DNA of 64,000 nucleotides, taken from positions 28,317 through 92,316 of the forward strand of contig CAIYUV010000122.1 in assembly GCA_903929475.1 (NCBI GenBank), in the 5' to 3' direction. Below the pieces are notes generated by a model. That model was not told the DNA's origin. It did not search any database and saw only the letters and a list, made by a program, of their open reading frames with translations. The translations under genes and the position numbers were made by a program. This DNA comes from an uncultured Spartobacteria bacterium. GTDB lineage: Bacteria; Verrucomicrobiota; Verrucomicrobiia; Chthoniobacterales; Chthoniobacteraceae. This document shows, in pieces, positions 8,977-57,164 of the stretch. The stretch's first letter is position 1. Every line of letters starts with the position of its first letter.

Positions 8977-11319
8977 ATGGCGTCCACTCACGCTGACTCC
9001 GTAAAGAAGCGGCGTCACGCATGGCGTCCGCGAATCATCGTCGTGCTGGCGCTGCTCGCAGGCGCGGTGTGGGCGGGTTGCACGATCCGGCTGGAAACTG
9101 AACTGCTCGCACTGCTGCCGCCGGACTTGCCGAGCGTGCGCGGGCTCGATGGCTTTCAGCGCCAGTTCGCCAGCGACCGCGAAGTGGTGCTCGTGGCCGA
9201 GGAAAATCTGCCCGCAGCGGAACGCGAGGAGTTTTTCCGGAAACTCAAGCCCGCCCTCGCGGCTCTGCCGGGCGTCGAGTCCGTGGAAAGCACAGGCGGC
9301 GAGTGGCTGAAATCCGCACCGCAGCTCGCAGCCTGGGCCGTCTGGAATCTCCCGCCGGAGCAATTTGCAAAAGTCACCGCCTCGCTTACCGATGAACGCG
9401 TCAAACAGCGTCTCGCGGAACTCCCCTCGATCCTCGCCGGCGCCCTCGATCCCGAGGAAATGGCGAAGCGGCAGTTCGATCCCCTCGACTTGCTCGACGC
9501 ACTCGGCGGAGGCGGAGACGACAGCGGCTTCCAATGGACGGGGCAGGCTGCAAAATCCCTCACGATCACATCCTCGCACCCGCTCATTGCATTCCAGGAC
9601 TGCGCGAGTTTCTGCAATGCAATCCAGTCCGCCATCCAGCGCGCACTTCCCGGTGAAAAGCGGCTGCTGCTCACGGGAAGGCCCGCATTTACCGCCGAAA
9701 TCTCCACACAAATGCGCAGCGACATGATCCTCATGATGGTCGTCGCGACCGTGCTCGTGAGCGCGGCGTTCTGGGCCTTCTACCGCACCGTGCGGCCGCT
9801 CGGCTGGATACTCCTCGGCCAGTTCCTCGCACTCGGCGTCGGCCTCATCACCGCGCGGCTCGGCGCAGGGTCGCTGAATGTCATCAGCATGGGCTTCGCC
9901 TGCATTCTCCTTGGGATCAGCATGGACTACAGCATCCTCGTCTATCACCACTTTGCCTCGCCGCTTCGCGAAGATCACCACGTCTGGGAGCGCTTGAAAC
10001 ACGGCATCTGGTTCAGCGCCGTCACGACTGCCGCCGCGTTTCTCGTGCTCGCGTTCTCATCGCTCCCGGGCCTCCGCCAGCTCGCGATGCTTGTCGCCTC
10101 GGGCCTGGTTGCCTCCGCGTGGTTCGCCACATGGCTGCTGCCGGCAGCGTGGGCCACGCGCATTCCGAAACCGCTCCCCTTCCTCCAGCGCGCGAGCGAC
10201 GCGATGGCCCGCACGATGGACCGCCGCGGACTCCTTTTGCTCGTCATCGTGATCCTCGCCGCACTCCCCGTCGGCTGGAAGCTCCTCCGCAACCCCGCCT
10301 CCCTCTACGCGCCCGAGTTGGACAACCTCCAGCCCTCCACCAGCGCCGCATTTCGCGGACAACTCATCCTCGCAAAAAACGACCCCTCCTTCCGCGACGC
10401 CATCTACCTCGTCCAGGCACCTTCCTGGGATGCCGTAAAAGACGCATCCGCCGAAATCACCAACCGTGTCGCCCCCGGGCGCATCTCGCCGATGAACGGC
10501 TTCCTCCCCTCCCCGAAAAACCAGACCGCAAATCGCAAATTGTGGCCCGCCTCCCCGCAAACCACCGCCGCCCGCCTGCGAAAAGCCTTCGCAGACGCCG
10601 GCCTCGGCAGCGAGTGGAGCGAATCCACCATCACCTTCGCAGAAACGCTCGACCATGCCGGTTCCAGCGAAGCCTTTCACGCCGTCCAGCCACTCCTTTC
10701 CAAGCTCTTCACGGAAAAAACCGGCCAGTGCCGCGCCATCATCCGCGTCCCCGACGCCGGCGAACACCCCATCCCCGCCGCCGGCCTCGCCATCGCCGGA
10801 GCGGACGTGATGCCCGTGAGCTGGGTCGCCCTCAAAGAAGAACTCAACCGCACCTCCACCGGCGACCTCGGGCGCCTTGGCGGATGGGCCCTCGTCGCCA
10901 TCGCCGCACTCTGCGCCCTCGCCCAGCGTTCCCTGCGAATGGTGCTCTTGAATTTCGCCGCGCTCGTCATTTCCCTCCTCCTGCTCGCCGCTTTGCTTTC
11001 AATCACCGGCACACAACTCAGCGCACTCTCCCTCCTCTGCGTCCCGCTGCTCCTCGGCCTCGTCGTGGACTACAGCCTCCACGTCCTCATGGCCCTAGAA
11101 CATGAACACGGCGACTTCCGCCAGCTCTACGCCCACATCGGCGCCCCCATATTACTCACCGGCCTCTCCTCGTGCATCGGCTTCGGCGCACCCATGCTCA
11201 CCAGCCAGCCCGCATTGCAAAACTTCGGCCTCGTCATGGACCTCGGCATCATCGCCGCCGTCACCTCCTGCCTCTTCCTCCTCCCCGTCCTCGCCCGCAT
11301 CACCGCACGGCGGAAATGA
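8977..11319 (+). CDS. RND/MMPL-type exporter (COG4258-like)
   Basis: Two blocks of TM helices with SMDYSILVYHH and VVDYSLHVLMALEHEHGD signatures; large periplasmic loops. Confidence 0.85.
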   Translation: MASTHADSVKKRRHAWRPRIIVVLALLAGAVWAGCTIRLETELLALLPPDLPSVRGLDGFQRQFASDREVVLVAEENLPAAEREEFFRKLKPALAALPGVESVESTGGEWLKSAPQLAAWAVWNLPPEQFAKVTASLTDERVKQRLAELPSILAGALDPEEMAKRQFDPLDLLDALGGGGDDSGFQWTGQAAKSLTITSSHPLIAFQDCASFCNAIQSAIQRALPGEKRLLLTGRPAFTAEISTQMRSDMILMMVVATVLVSAAFWAFYRTVRPLGWILLGQFLALGVGLITARLGAGSLNVISMGFACILLGISMDYSILVYHHFASPLREDHHVWERLKHGIWFSAVTTAAAFLVLAFSSLPGLRQLAMLVASGLVASAWFATWLLPAAWATRIPKPLPFLQRASDAMARTMDRRGLLLLVIVILAALPVGWKLLRNPASLYAPELDNLQPSTSAAFRGQLILAKNDPSFRDAIYLVQAPSWDAVKDASAEITNRVAPGRISPMNGFLPSPKNQTANRKLWPASPQTTAARLRKAFADAGLGSEWSESTITFAETLDHAGSSEAFHAVQPLLSKLFTEKTGQCRAIIRVPDAGEHPIPAAGLAIAGADVMPVSWVALKEELNRTSTGDLGRLGGWALVAIAALCALAQRSLRMVLLNFAALVISLLLLAALLSITGTQLSALSLLCVPLLLGLVVDYSLHVLMALEHEHGDFRQLYAHIGAPILLTGLSSCIGFGAPMLTSQPALQNFGLVMDLGIIAAVTSCLFLLPVLARITARRK

Positions 11320-52870: not shown

Positions 52871-53968
52871 TTAAACCCCGAGCAGCAAACGCGACGGCTG
52901 CTCGATGCCCTCTTTGACTTTCACGAGGAAAGTGACGGCCTCTTTTCCATCCACCACGCGGTGATCATAGCTGAGCGCGAGATACATCATCGGTCGCGCC
53001 ACAATCTGTCCATTCACGACAACGGCGCGCTCCTGAATCTTGTGCATCCCGAGGATGCCGCTCTGCGGCGGATTCAGAATCGGCGTGCTCAACAGGCTGC
53101 CGTAAATCCCGCCGTTGCTGAGCGTGAAAACTCCGCCCGACAAATCGTCAGTTGTGATTTTTCCCTCACGCGCCCTGGTCGCAAATCCAGCGAGATCGCG
53201 CTCCAGTTCGGGAAAGGTTTTTGCATCCGCCCCTCGAACCACCGGCACCACAAGGCCGCGCTCGGTGCCCACTGCGACGCCGATGTCGTAAAAATGGTTT
53301 TGCACCAATTCATCGCCTTCGAGGCGCGCATTGATCTGCGGCACCGCCTTGAGCGCGACGACCACAGCCTTGATAAAAAACGACATGAACCCGAGCTTGA
53401 TACCATGCTGCTTTTGAAAATCTTCGCCCAACTCCTTGCGCAGCGCCATCACTGCGGACATGTCGGCTTCATTGAACGTGGTAAGGATCGCCGCCGTGTG
53501 CTGCGCCATCACGAGCTGCGCCGCGATCTTCCGGCGCAATGGCGAGAGCTTCCTGCGCGTGCTGCGACCATCGCTGGCGGGCGCGGTGTTTTCTATGGCA
53601 ATTGCGGGTGATTCATTCGCCACCGCAGCTGCTGCGGAAAGCGAAACCGATACTGCTGGAACTGGAGCTGACTCGGAAGCAGGCACGGATTTCTTTGCGG
53701 TCCTTTTCTGCGCTGGCTGCGCGGGTGCGGCAGCGGCATCTTCGATTATCGCAACAACCTCGCCAATCTTCACCTCCGCACCAGTTGCGGCCTTGATCCG
53801 CAGGACGCCCCCGCAATCGGCAGTGATCTCCGTAGAGACCTTGTCCGTTTCGAGCGTGAGCAAAGCGTCGCCCTTGCTGACTGTATCCCCATCATTTTTC
53901 AGCCACGCCGAGATCATGCCGCTCGTGACCGACTCCCCCACCGCTGGAATTTTGACTTCAAGACTCAT
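52871..53968 (-). CDS. sucB: dihydrolipoamide succinyltransferase (E2 of 2-oxoglutarate dehydrogenase)
   Basis: [50 protein letters not shown] lipoyl domain; C-terminal [24 protein letters not shown]. Confidence 0.93.
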
Positions 53969-54019
53969 ACGCCTCCACGTTCGCCATGAATGCACCCTTT
54001 GTGCAACGGCAAACCTTGC

Positions 54020-55447
54020 CTATGCACGCTCGATGAGTTCGCGCACTTCGTTCTCGTAGGTGCTGAACGGGTCGCCCATCGCGAGCGGCTTTTGCTCGTT
54101 TGCAGTGAGCGAGTCCCAATGAATCACGCACGGCATCCGCGTCTCCATGAAACGCTCGATCGCAAGCCCCCGGCCCCACGCACGCGTGTCGCGCGGCGGC
54201 TCGCGCAATGCACTTTCCCGGCGCGCCGTGAGATTAAACTGCCCAATCTCCTCCTTCACGGGTAGCGCGTAAAAGAGTCCGCGCGACGGGTTGAGGTTGT
54301 GGTATTCGAGGTCGAGGCTTTGCAGCCACGGGTCGTCCCACTCGATTCCTTGCTCGGCGCGAAAAGTTTCGAGCAGCCATTTCTTCGATACCCAGTCCAC
54401 GGCACCGATAAGCGACTCCGTGTCATCGCGACGAAGCGCATCCAGCAGCCAGGCCCATTGTTCGAGCAGCCAGTCGGTTTCCTCGTCGCGTCCGGCGAAC
54501 GCCTCGGTCGCAGATGCGTGAAATTTTTCCTGAATACCCAGCGCCGTCTCCGCGCCGCCGCCAACGAGTGCGACCGGTGCATCCGCGCGACACGAACGCG
54601 AGACGAGGCGCGTGGCCATCACCGCATCATCGAGAGCAACGCGGCGCGGAAGGCGGTTCTCTTCGAGCAAAGTGAGCACGAGATGTGTGGTGCCGATCTT
54701 CAGCGCGGTGGCAAAGGGCGACATGTTAGAGTCGCCGATGAGCAGGTGGAGACGGCGGTATTTGCGGTAGTCGGCGAGCGGTTCGTCGCGAGCGTTGATG
54801 ATGGCGCGGTTGAACTGCACCCATTGGTAGATGTCGTTCATGATGTGGTCCGCGCGCTGGCTGATCTGAAAGTCCACCTTGTCAAACGGCGGCAGCGGCG
54901 AGACCTCAAGCGCCTGCGAAGTCGCCTGCCCCACGCGCCCGGTGCCTGTGAAAATCTGCCGCGTCGCGAGGAACGAAAGGACGGCGCCCACACCCGCCGG
55001 TGTGAACGGCGTCTCGCGTCGCATGAGATAGTTTTCGTGGCAGCCGAAAGTCGCGCCCGTGTGATGATCAATGTTGTTTTTTAGAAACGCCACCTCTTCC
55101 GCCACGCCCATCGCATCCAGCGCGGCTTGAACGAATGCGTCGCCCGCCACGTCGTAGGCCACGATATCGCGCACGCTGCGGCATTCGGGCGTCGCATATT
55201 CGAGGTGTCCCATGTCGAGATACAGCCGCCCGCCGTTGCGCAAAAAACCACCGTTGCCAGGCGGTTCCTCGTAATCGCGGAAATGGGTGTCGAGCACACC
55301 GGCGCGAGACTTTTTGAAAAGGTGATTCTTCACCCGCGCAGGCCACGACTCCGCGCTACGGTCTTCCTCTTTGCTGACAAGGCAACCGTATTCAGTTTCG
55401 ATGCCGACGATTCGATTCACAGCGTGTGAGAAGTTGCGTGCCGCCAA
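54020..55447 (-). CDS. PafA/Dop family (Pup ligase / depupylase-like) protein
   Basis: NRIVGIETEYGCLV, FLRNGGRLYLDMGHLEYATPEC, FLKNNIDHHTGATFGCHENYLM, FLATRQIFTGTGRV, ISQRADHI, INARDEPLAD..KYRRLHLLIGDSNMSPFATALKIGTTHLVL. Confidence 0.92.
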   Translation of the reverse strand: MAARNFSHAVNRIVGIETEYGCLVSKEEDRSAESWPARVKNHLFKKSRAGVLDTHFRDYEEPPGNGGFLRNGGRLYLDMGHLEYATPECRSVRDIVAYDVAGDAFVQAALDAMGVAEEVAFLKNNIDHHTGATFGCHENYLMRRETPFTPAGVGAVLSFLATRQIFTGTGRVGQATSQALEVSPLPPFDKVDFQISQRADHIMNDIYQWVQFNRAIINARDEPLADYRKYRRLHLLIGDSNMSPFATALKIGTTHLVLTLLEENRLPRRVALDDAVMATRLVSRSCRADAPVALVGGGAETALGIQEKFHASATEAFAGRDEETDWLLEQWAWLLDALRRDDTESLIGAVDWVSKKWLLETFRAEQGIEWDDPWLQSLDLEYHNLNPSRGLFYALPVKEEIGQFNLTARRESALREPPRDTRAWGRGLAIERFMETRMPCVIHWDSLTANEQKPLAMGDPFSTYENEVRELIERA

Positions 55448-55486: not shown

Positions 55487-56194
55487 TCAACTCTCCAAAT
55501 AAAGAATCCGTCCGCAGTTCAAGCACGCCGTCACGACCTTTGCTGTGCGGACTGCGTGGAACACATGCGTCTGAGCTTTTACATGGCAGCCCTGGCAGAT
55601 TTCGTTTTCGAGCGCGACGACGGCGTGGCCGTCCTTTTTGTCGAAGAGCCGTTGATATTCATCGAGAAGATCCTCGTCCACATCGGCTGCGAGCTTCGCG
55701 CGATCTGCCTGGATTTCGACCAATTGTGCTTCAAGCGCCTTCACCTTGGCGTCGAGATCCGCGCTCTGGCTCTGCACCTGCGACTTTGTCGCGGCTGATT
55801 CCTTTTCTGCGGCGGCGATGATCGGCTTTTGCAACTCCGCCGCTTCCATGAGTTCCATCTCCTTGTCCTCGATGCCCGCGATTTCGATTTTCAAACTCTC
55901 GATGGCGTGGTCGTAGGCGCGATACTCCTCGTTCTTTTTCGTTTCGAGTTTTTGCTGCTCGTATTTGTTGATGCGATCGGTGCGGGTGCGGACTTCGTTT
56001 TCCAGCTCCTTACGCTTCACTTCGATTTCCTTGGCTTTGAGTTTCGCAGCATCAAGCGCGTTGGAAGCGGCACTGAGTCTGGCATCGAACGCCTTTCTTT
56101 CGAGCGGCGCGTTTTTGAGTTCGATTTTGAGCTGCCGCAATTTGCGATCGCGGTCTTGGATGACGAGAAGTTGAGTGACTGCGGGAAGGATCAT
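55487..56194 (-). CDS. coiled-coil protein with C4-type zinc ribbon (DUF164-like)
   Basis: Long coiled coil followed by NEICQGCHVKAQTHVFHAVRTAKVVTACLNCGRILYLE. Confidence 0.87.
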   Translation of the reverse strand: MILPAVTQLLVIQDRDRKLRQLKIELKNAPLERKAFDARLSAASNALDAAKLKAKEIEVKRKELENEVRTRTDRINKYEQQKLETKKNEEYRAYDHAIESLKIEIAGIEDKEMELMEAAELQKPIIAAAEKESAATKSQVQSQSADLDAKVKALEAQLVEIQADRAKLAADVDEDLLDEYQRLFDKKDGHAVVALENEICQGCHVKAQTHVFHAVRTAKVVTACLNCGRILYLES

Positions 56195-56258
56195 GTGGCG
56201 GTGAAGTTGTTCATTCGCACGCTGAGCGTCAACAGTTCGCCGCAGGAAAAGCCCTCTT

Positions 56259-57164
56259 TTACAAGAGCATCTGTTCCTCGGGAGGAACGGTCTTTTCAAC
56301 GCGCTCGGCCTGGAGCACGGAAATGCGACGGCCTTTTTCGATGGGAAAACTGGGTTTGCCGATGATTTTCACCCACGTCATCTCGGGAAAAGCGGGCATT
56401 TTCTCCACCTCCACGAGCGTAGCCACGGGGCGCGCGTCTGCGGCGCAGCATGTCATAAACATCCGCACAGCCTTAAAGCGATGACCGGTGGCGTTGTTCG
56501 TGTTGTCGGGCATGAACTGCGCGATGAGCTGCACTTCCTTGCCTTCGAAATCGGGCCGCAAAATCGCATCCTGTGCGGCGTAAAGCAGGTCGAGAACCTC
56601 GGCCATGATGTAACCCTCGGGCGTGCGTGTGAGGTAATCGGTCGCGGGTTTCGTCTGCGGCTGCGCGACGGCCGGGGCGGGCTGTGTGCCATCCTTGCTC
56701 GGAAGCGGCAGGTCGTTCTTCGTGTTCACAGCGCCGGGGATTTTTGGCGCGTTGGCAGTCATAGACGCGAATTTTTCCTGCGTTCGCTCCATCGCTGCGG
56801 GCAAATCCTTTCCATCGGTGGAGGTGCGGCGGTTTTTCGTGATGTTGCTGCTGAATTCACCACGCGAATATGGCACCGCAATGCAGATGGGAACGAGCAG
56901 GATTAAGAAGGCGAGCAACTTTCCCGCACTGACACGGCTAAGTCCGTGGCCGCACTCCGCTGACGAACAGCAGCTCGCATCCGCCTTGAACGCGACAAAT
57001 ACCATGGCCATCAACGCAAGCACGCACGCCGCCGCCAGTGCATAGCGGTGAAATTCAGGCGTGAGCATGTTTTTCATCCGCTCCGAAAAGTGAAAGTAAA
57101 ACAGCACCACGCTCCACGTGGCGAGCGTGGCGGCGGGGAGCCATCGGGCGATGAGCTTTTGCAT
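56259..57164 (-). CDS. TIGR03943/DUF1980-like membrane protein
   Basis: N-terminal TM helices, C-terminal MFMTCCAADARPVATLVEVEKMPAFPEMTWVKIIGKP; next to the DUF318-like permease. Confidence 0.8.
   Translation of the reverse strand: MQKLIARWLPAATLATWSVVLFYFHFSERMKNMLTPEFHRYALAAACVLALMAMVFVAFKADASCCSSAECGHGLSRVSAGKLLAFLILLVPICIAVPYSRGEFSSNITKNRRTSTDGKDLPAAMERTQEKFASMTANAPKIPGAVNTKNDLPLPSKDGTQPAPAVAQPQTKPATDYLTRTPEGYIMAEVLDLLYAAQDAILRPDFEGKEVQLIAQFMPDNTNNATGHRFKAVRMFMTCCAADARPVATLVEVEKMPAFPEMTWVKIIGKPSFPIEKGRRISVLQAERVEKTVPPEEQMLL

Follow-up and report, generated by a model that had tools for sequence, protein, structure and literature searches.

A lone PafA-type ligase gene and the scattered genes of a UBact-proteasome system in a Spartobacteria bacterium

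The window, that is the whole 64-kb stretch of DNA which was analysed, is part of one contig (C122) of a 4.50 Mb draft genome in 295 contigs (completeness 100, contamination 1.79). The features of interest are collected in Table 1. The ligase gene is an open, full-length and intact reading frame, and its product matched the Pup_ligase profile PF03136 over profile positions 1-440 of 441 (422 bits, E 3.6e-126; gathering cut-off 25 bits), which places it in the PafA/Dop family as the earlier note had proposed from the sequence. The annotated start is a TTG codon while the conserved part of the protein begins at a GTG at 55420-55418 (VNRIVGIETEYG), the position at which the relatives of the protein likewise start. 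The TTG start is therefore doubtful and the true start is likely the GTG at 55420, which would give a protein of 466 residues.

Table 1. Coordinates of the ligase gene and its two neighbours in the window
Feature	Position	Strand	Basis or remark
PafA-type ligase of UBact system	54020..55447	-	PF03136, TIGR03686, tree side, conserved catalytic residues
CT398/CdsZ-like coiled-coil C4 zinc-ribbon protein	55487..56299	-	PF24481, PF02591; context only
SucB-type 2-oxoacid dehydrogenase E2 acyltransferase	52871..53995	-	downstream of PafA; context only

The neighbours were as the earlier note had described them, with the zinc-ribbon coiled-coil gene (PF24481, PF02591) 39-66 bp upstream on the same strand and the SucB-type E2 gene downstream. 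The latter likely starts at an ATG at 53968 which has its own ribosome-binding-like GGAGG. No SucB match was found at the PafA loci of the fetched relatives, so that SucB adjoins PafA in the window only, and when a conserved PafA neighbourhood was sought across the order the zinc-ribbon gene alone recurred across families. It lies directly upstream of PafA also at L017, L018, L019, L025 and L101 (the last in G051, of another family); in the same-genus genome G116 it is on another contig, and in most of the order it is apart from PafA. This pattern is better explained by a linkage that is ancestral or was kept by chance than by a functional pairing.

To which side of the family the protein belongs was addressed with profiles, alignment, trees and structure. 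It matched the PafA model TIGR03686 with 338 bits over residues 12-473 and the Dop model TIGR03688 with 311 bits over residues 67-473 only. Both equivalog models are based on actinobacteria and the protein fell under the curated cut-offs of both (551.3 for TIGR03686), that is, it does not score as a PafA of the actinobacterial type. In an alignment with PafA of Corynebacterium glutamicum (Cg; PDB 4B0T, 4BJR) and Dop of A. cellulolyticus (PDB 4B0R) the ATP-binding and catalytic residues (GxExE, the catalytic Asp and RDE) were all kept, with equivalents of Cg E16, E18, D64, E70, R207, D208 and E209. These seven are invariant in 44 of 45 PafA rows, the remaining row being gapped, and the catalytic residues are conserved also in 19 close relatives. 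With actinobacterial PafA the protein shares the fold family, the GxExE, catalytic Asp and RDEP motifs, the absence of a Dop-loop and the side of the tree, and it is about 34% identical to a Nonomuraea PafA. With Dop it shares the superfamily, the active-site cradle and the spacing after the catalytic Asp, but the Dop-loop (about 40 residues) and the D-H-A motif are missing from it. In its own genome only a paralogue on contig C217 has this loop. No relatives of the protein were found on the viral contigs which were scanned.

In trees of 72-74 sequences, sampled without PafA from Nitrospirae, Armatimonadetes or Methylacidiphilum, the window protein fell among the Verrucomicrobial PafAs, and together with 36 of these and four actinobacterial PafAs it was separated from all Dops with support of 95/89 (91/96 when two divergent rows were included). 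A topology joining Verrucomicrobial PafA to actinobacterial Dop was rejected (p-AU 0.017), while one with Verrucomicrobial PafA and Dop as each other's closest relatives was not (p-AU 0.16); two lineage-specific branches in the tree are long. Since the Dop-loop is common to both Dop groups, an origin of both Verrucomicrobial enzymes within their own lineage is nevertheless disfavoured. An AlphaFold model built from 19 close sequences had a mean pLDDT of 64, with much of the active-site half below 50, and its best Foldseek match was the PafA structure 4b0t; because the model is weak only this fold match was used and not the conformation of the alpha-loop.

The protein departs from known PafA in several places. 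Hecht et al. 2020 (PMC7947786, Table 1) listed positions uniquely conserved in PafA, among them the alpha-loop and an insertion that follows the catalytic Asp. The window protein agrees with PafA at the positions of Cg F41, F54, L63, G66, A72, T73 and H188 and does not carry the full set. Its LDMG-HLEY motif is without the one-residue insertion after the catalytic Asp which is seen in actinobacterial PafA, it has Pro at the position of Cg A74 as Dop does, and in the alpha-loop a His is the sole PafA residue kept, most other positions matching neither enzyme. The statement of the earlier note that the protein is closer to PafA and has no evident Dop-loop stands, with the LDMG-HLEY motif as a caveat. 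Between the gapless anchors QR[AS]D and RDEP the C. glutamicum enzyme reads HVWEGVSSATTRSRPIINT and the window protein HIMNDIYQWVQFNRAIINA, with NDIYQWVQFNR in the alpha-loop where actinobacterial PafA has EGVSSATTRSR. A loop like YQWVQFNR was present in every Verrucomicrobial PafA examined and replaces the paired threonines of the actinobacterial enzyme. Each of the 44 PafA rows with residues at this place has V-Q for the pair (the window gene being counted twice), and each of the 57 rows of Verrucomicrobial Dop has T-M. Since exchange of the two threonines for alanine slowed ligation by mycobacterial PafA (PMC7947786), the V-Q replacement likely matters for Verrucomicrobial PafA.

The window itself holds no prcA, prcB, ARC or UBact gene, in agreement with the earlier note, and searches of the whole genome placed all of these on other contigs. 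The small modifier which had been suggested as a search target was found at C71:19278-19433 as UBact, with 82.9 bits to NF033388 (cut-off 35). It has 58 residues, MPDRTQKPTGPAPWERKEGG...RRYRQRTGQ, and ends in RTGQ. PrcB begins about 20 bases 3' of it on the same contig and keeps the active-site context TTILAFKF...GDRRAT. PrcA lies on C52; its match is weak (71 bits to 20S_bact_alpha, TIGR03691, and 25 bits to PF00227), but in sequence it is close to PrcA genes found inside intact clusters. The ARC/Mpa ATPase, with proteasomal OB domains, lies on C155 (440 bits to pup_AAA). Exactly two PF03136 genes are present in the genome, and the second, on C217, is Dop (466 bits to TIGR03688 against 370 to TIGR03686; 412 bits to the solved A. 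cellulolyticus Dop). All members of a UBact-proteasome system were therefore present, distributed as ARC, Dop, UBact-PrcB, PrcA and PafA over five contigs rather than in one cluster, clustering being usual for such systems but not defining. A second PafA was not found by the PF03136 search, so no other place in the genome has a full operon with both a PafA and a Dop, and the copy in the window, with its catalytic residues kept and the gene conserved, does not look like an inactive duplicate.

The ARC ATPases at L012:1159-3045, L064, L117 and L119 end in a hydrophobic pair (GSAVV, RSAVV, TVSVV, GSGVV). The tail of actinobacterial Mpa is GQYL. The different ending suggests a different docking tail for the 20S core.

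Systems of this kind are already known, going by PMC12751074 and PMC2588565. A UBact conjugation-proteasome system of Gram-negative bacteria was described by Lehmann et al. 2017 (BBRC 483:946, as cited in PMC12751074), and the parts found here are the same, namely UBact (NF033388), PafA and Dop homologues, ARC and the 20S alpha and beta subunits; there they form one cluster whereas here they occupy at least five separate places with PafA alone. Iyer et al. 2008 (PMC2588565) reported Pup and PafA from Methylacidiphilum, of the same phylum, with PafA homologues and a Pup-like protein ending in G[EQ], and in every lineage available at the time they saw the genes of Pup and PafA next to each other. 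The separation of PafA from UBact seen here is a departure from that picture.

Across 189 genomes of the class PF03136 was found in 39, UBact in 39 and both in 38 (Fisher p about 1e-37, which overstates the association as the genomes are related). G003 is the only sampled genome with PF03136 but without UBact, and the enzymes which it has are divergent. In genomes outside the order of the window the genes usually form a cluster of about 7 kb, ARC-Dop-UBact-PrcB-PrcA-PafA, whose PafA is of the same clade. Dop, UBact and PafA lay mutually within 6 kb in 24 of 29 genomes outside the order against 0 of 9 inside it, a comparison which was chosen after the data had been seen. Most of the order has three blocks (ARC-Dop, UBact-PrcB-PrcA and PafA). 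An in-between state is seen in G051, where about 4 kb separate PafA from PrcA and the two are on opposite strands. In the window's genus (G000, G116) ARC and Dop are on separate contigs and PrcA too is alone, so that the system is in at least five pieces, with all six genes intact and open in both genomes. From these arrangements the dispersal reads as a stepwise break-up of an ancestral cluster. Contig breaks were considered as its source and rejected, as PafA is flanked in the window by about 54 kb and 8.5 kb of sequence, and separate loci are found also in genomes of only 10 to 30 contigs (G040, G009, G087).

Several related loci were recorded alongside. In G121, of the window's own family and 96% complete, UBact-PrcB-PrcA are kept (L124, G121:C66:7000-22000) and PafA, Dop and ARC were not found anywhere in the genome; either the modifier of this 20S core is not used or the assembly has two gaps. 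Two other sampled family members, G106 and G188, are without the system. In G092 PafA is split into two adjacent frames (L103, G092:C23:51000-70000, 9397-10787) by a frameshift or a sequencing error. G003, of another family of the class, carries on the minus strand at 3139-10360 of L123 (G003:C3:34000-46000) a Pup-like operon without linked proteasome genes, which encodes a JAB/Mov34 protein, an ARC-like AAA ATPase, a PafA/Dop-like enzyme, a 65-aa ORF ending in SVRQDGGQ and a further PafA/Dop-like enzyme that has a long extension at its C-terminus. UBact was not matched in this genome. Iyer et al. 2008 (PMC2588565) do not mention a JAB protease next to a Pup-like modifier. The 11.85-Mb Nonomuraea 'plasmid' NZ_LT559118.1 (L138, L139), which looks like a chromosome, has two PafA genes and a Dop. 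Adjoining Dop and PafA genes are also present in MT835496.1 (L140), an unverified 'Bacteriophage sp.' record from faeces which is probably bacterial.

The sequences show which genes are present, that the catalytic residues are intact, on which side of the tree the protein falls, that PF03136 and UBact co-occur almost perfectly and that the genes are dispersed throughout the order. We consider it very probable that the window gene encodes the sole PafA-type ligase of a UBact-proteasome system which is complete but has its genes dispersed around the chromosome. It is one more member of a known sort of ligase, in a dispersed system, and it looks isolated only because in these Verrucomicrobia the genes of the system appear to have moved away from one another. 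The enzyme probably couples UBact, a bacterial counterpart of ubiquitin, to proteins which are to be degraded. Biochemical activity, substrates and the joint function of the parts we infer by analogy with pupylation. The Dop homologue on C217 would convert the last residue of UBact (RTGQ) from Gln to Glu by deamidation. The window PafA would then phosphorylate the UBact gamma-carboxylate with ATP and join UBact to lysines of target proteins, its presumed substrate being UBact (RTG[QE]) where actinobacterial PafA acts on Pup. ARC (C155) would unfold the tagged proteins into the PrcA/PrcB 20S core (C52, C71), and Dop could also take UBact off again. Among 29 distinct UBact sequences (L027 to L135), all ending in RTGQ or RTGE, the last residue is Glu in 15 and Gln in 14, so that Dop would be needed for deamidation in some species, while presumably serving UBact removal in all. 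Even closely related genomes differ in this residue, for example G009 with Gln and G040 with Glu, so that the need for deamidation seems to flip easily.

Other explanations were weighed against this one. The earlier note had left room for a separate ligase which tags proteins independently of a proteasome, with its own modifier or purpose. A 64-kb window without any other gene of the system would suit such an enzyme, and the retention of UBact, PrcB and PrcA in G121 without a PF03136 gene or ARC indicates that the parts need not travel together. However, the gene is the only PafA in a genome which holds UBact, Dop, ARC, PrcA and PrcB, it belongs to the clade of the PafAs inside intact clusters, and PF03136 without UBact occurs in a single sampled genome with divergent enzymes; we regard a separate ligase as extremely unlikely. 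Of what the earlier note had put forward, a relocated PafA-type ligase with a link to UBact is what remains, and proteasome-independent tagging is set aside along with the separate ligase.

The short Asp-M-G-H motif and the unusual alpha-loop would also allow a Dop-like hydrolase or deamidase, or a bifunctional enzyme. The missing insertion, the Pro at Cg A74 and the absence of all PafA alpha-loop residues except one His point in this direction, as does a phmmer comparison in which the solved Dops scored slightly over PafA (238 against 225 bits). Such an enzyme is nonetheless highly improbable given the absence of the Dop-loop, the PafA residues at Cg F41, F54, L63, G66 and H188, the position in the tree with the rejected actinobacterial Dop grouping, and the presence of a separate, well-matched Dop in the same genome. 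A dispersed PafA on its way to loss of function in a lineage where the system is decaying would be in keeping with G106 and G188, with the reduced set in G121 and with the split PafA of G092, but we consider this improbable, as the six genes are intact and open in G000 and G116 and the PafAs of the window and of G116 are 77% identical with the catalytic residues kept. The reading of the window gene as the PafA of a scattered UBact-proteasome system is thus preferred.

The order-wide break-up of the cluster and the alpha-loop of Verrucomicrobial PafA seem to be the less familiar points; a search of openly accessible papers for an account of UBact gave citations and passing mentions only, and priority on either point is thus not claimed. 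As the published picture is one of Pup and PafA as neighbours in all lineages, searches by gene neighbourhood would miss or misread a ligase such as this one. The dispersal shows that no operon is needed for the system to persist, and it leaves the break-up on record step by step. A more speculative reading, which we hold to be rather doubtful, is that Verrucomicrobial UBact ligases are a mechanistically distinct PafA subfamily whose W-V-Q-F-N-R loop, without the paired threonines, chooses tag or target differently, and that in Chthoniobacterales the system is split into separately regulated genes such that conjugation could uncouple from degradation. With its invariant difference the alpha-loop is a clear site for mutations that ask why a member of this family ligates UBact and not Pup.
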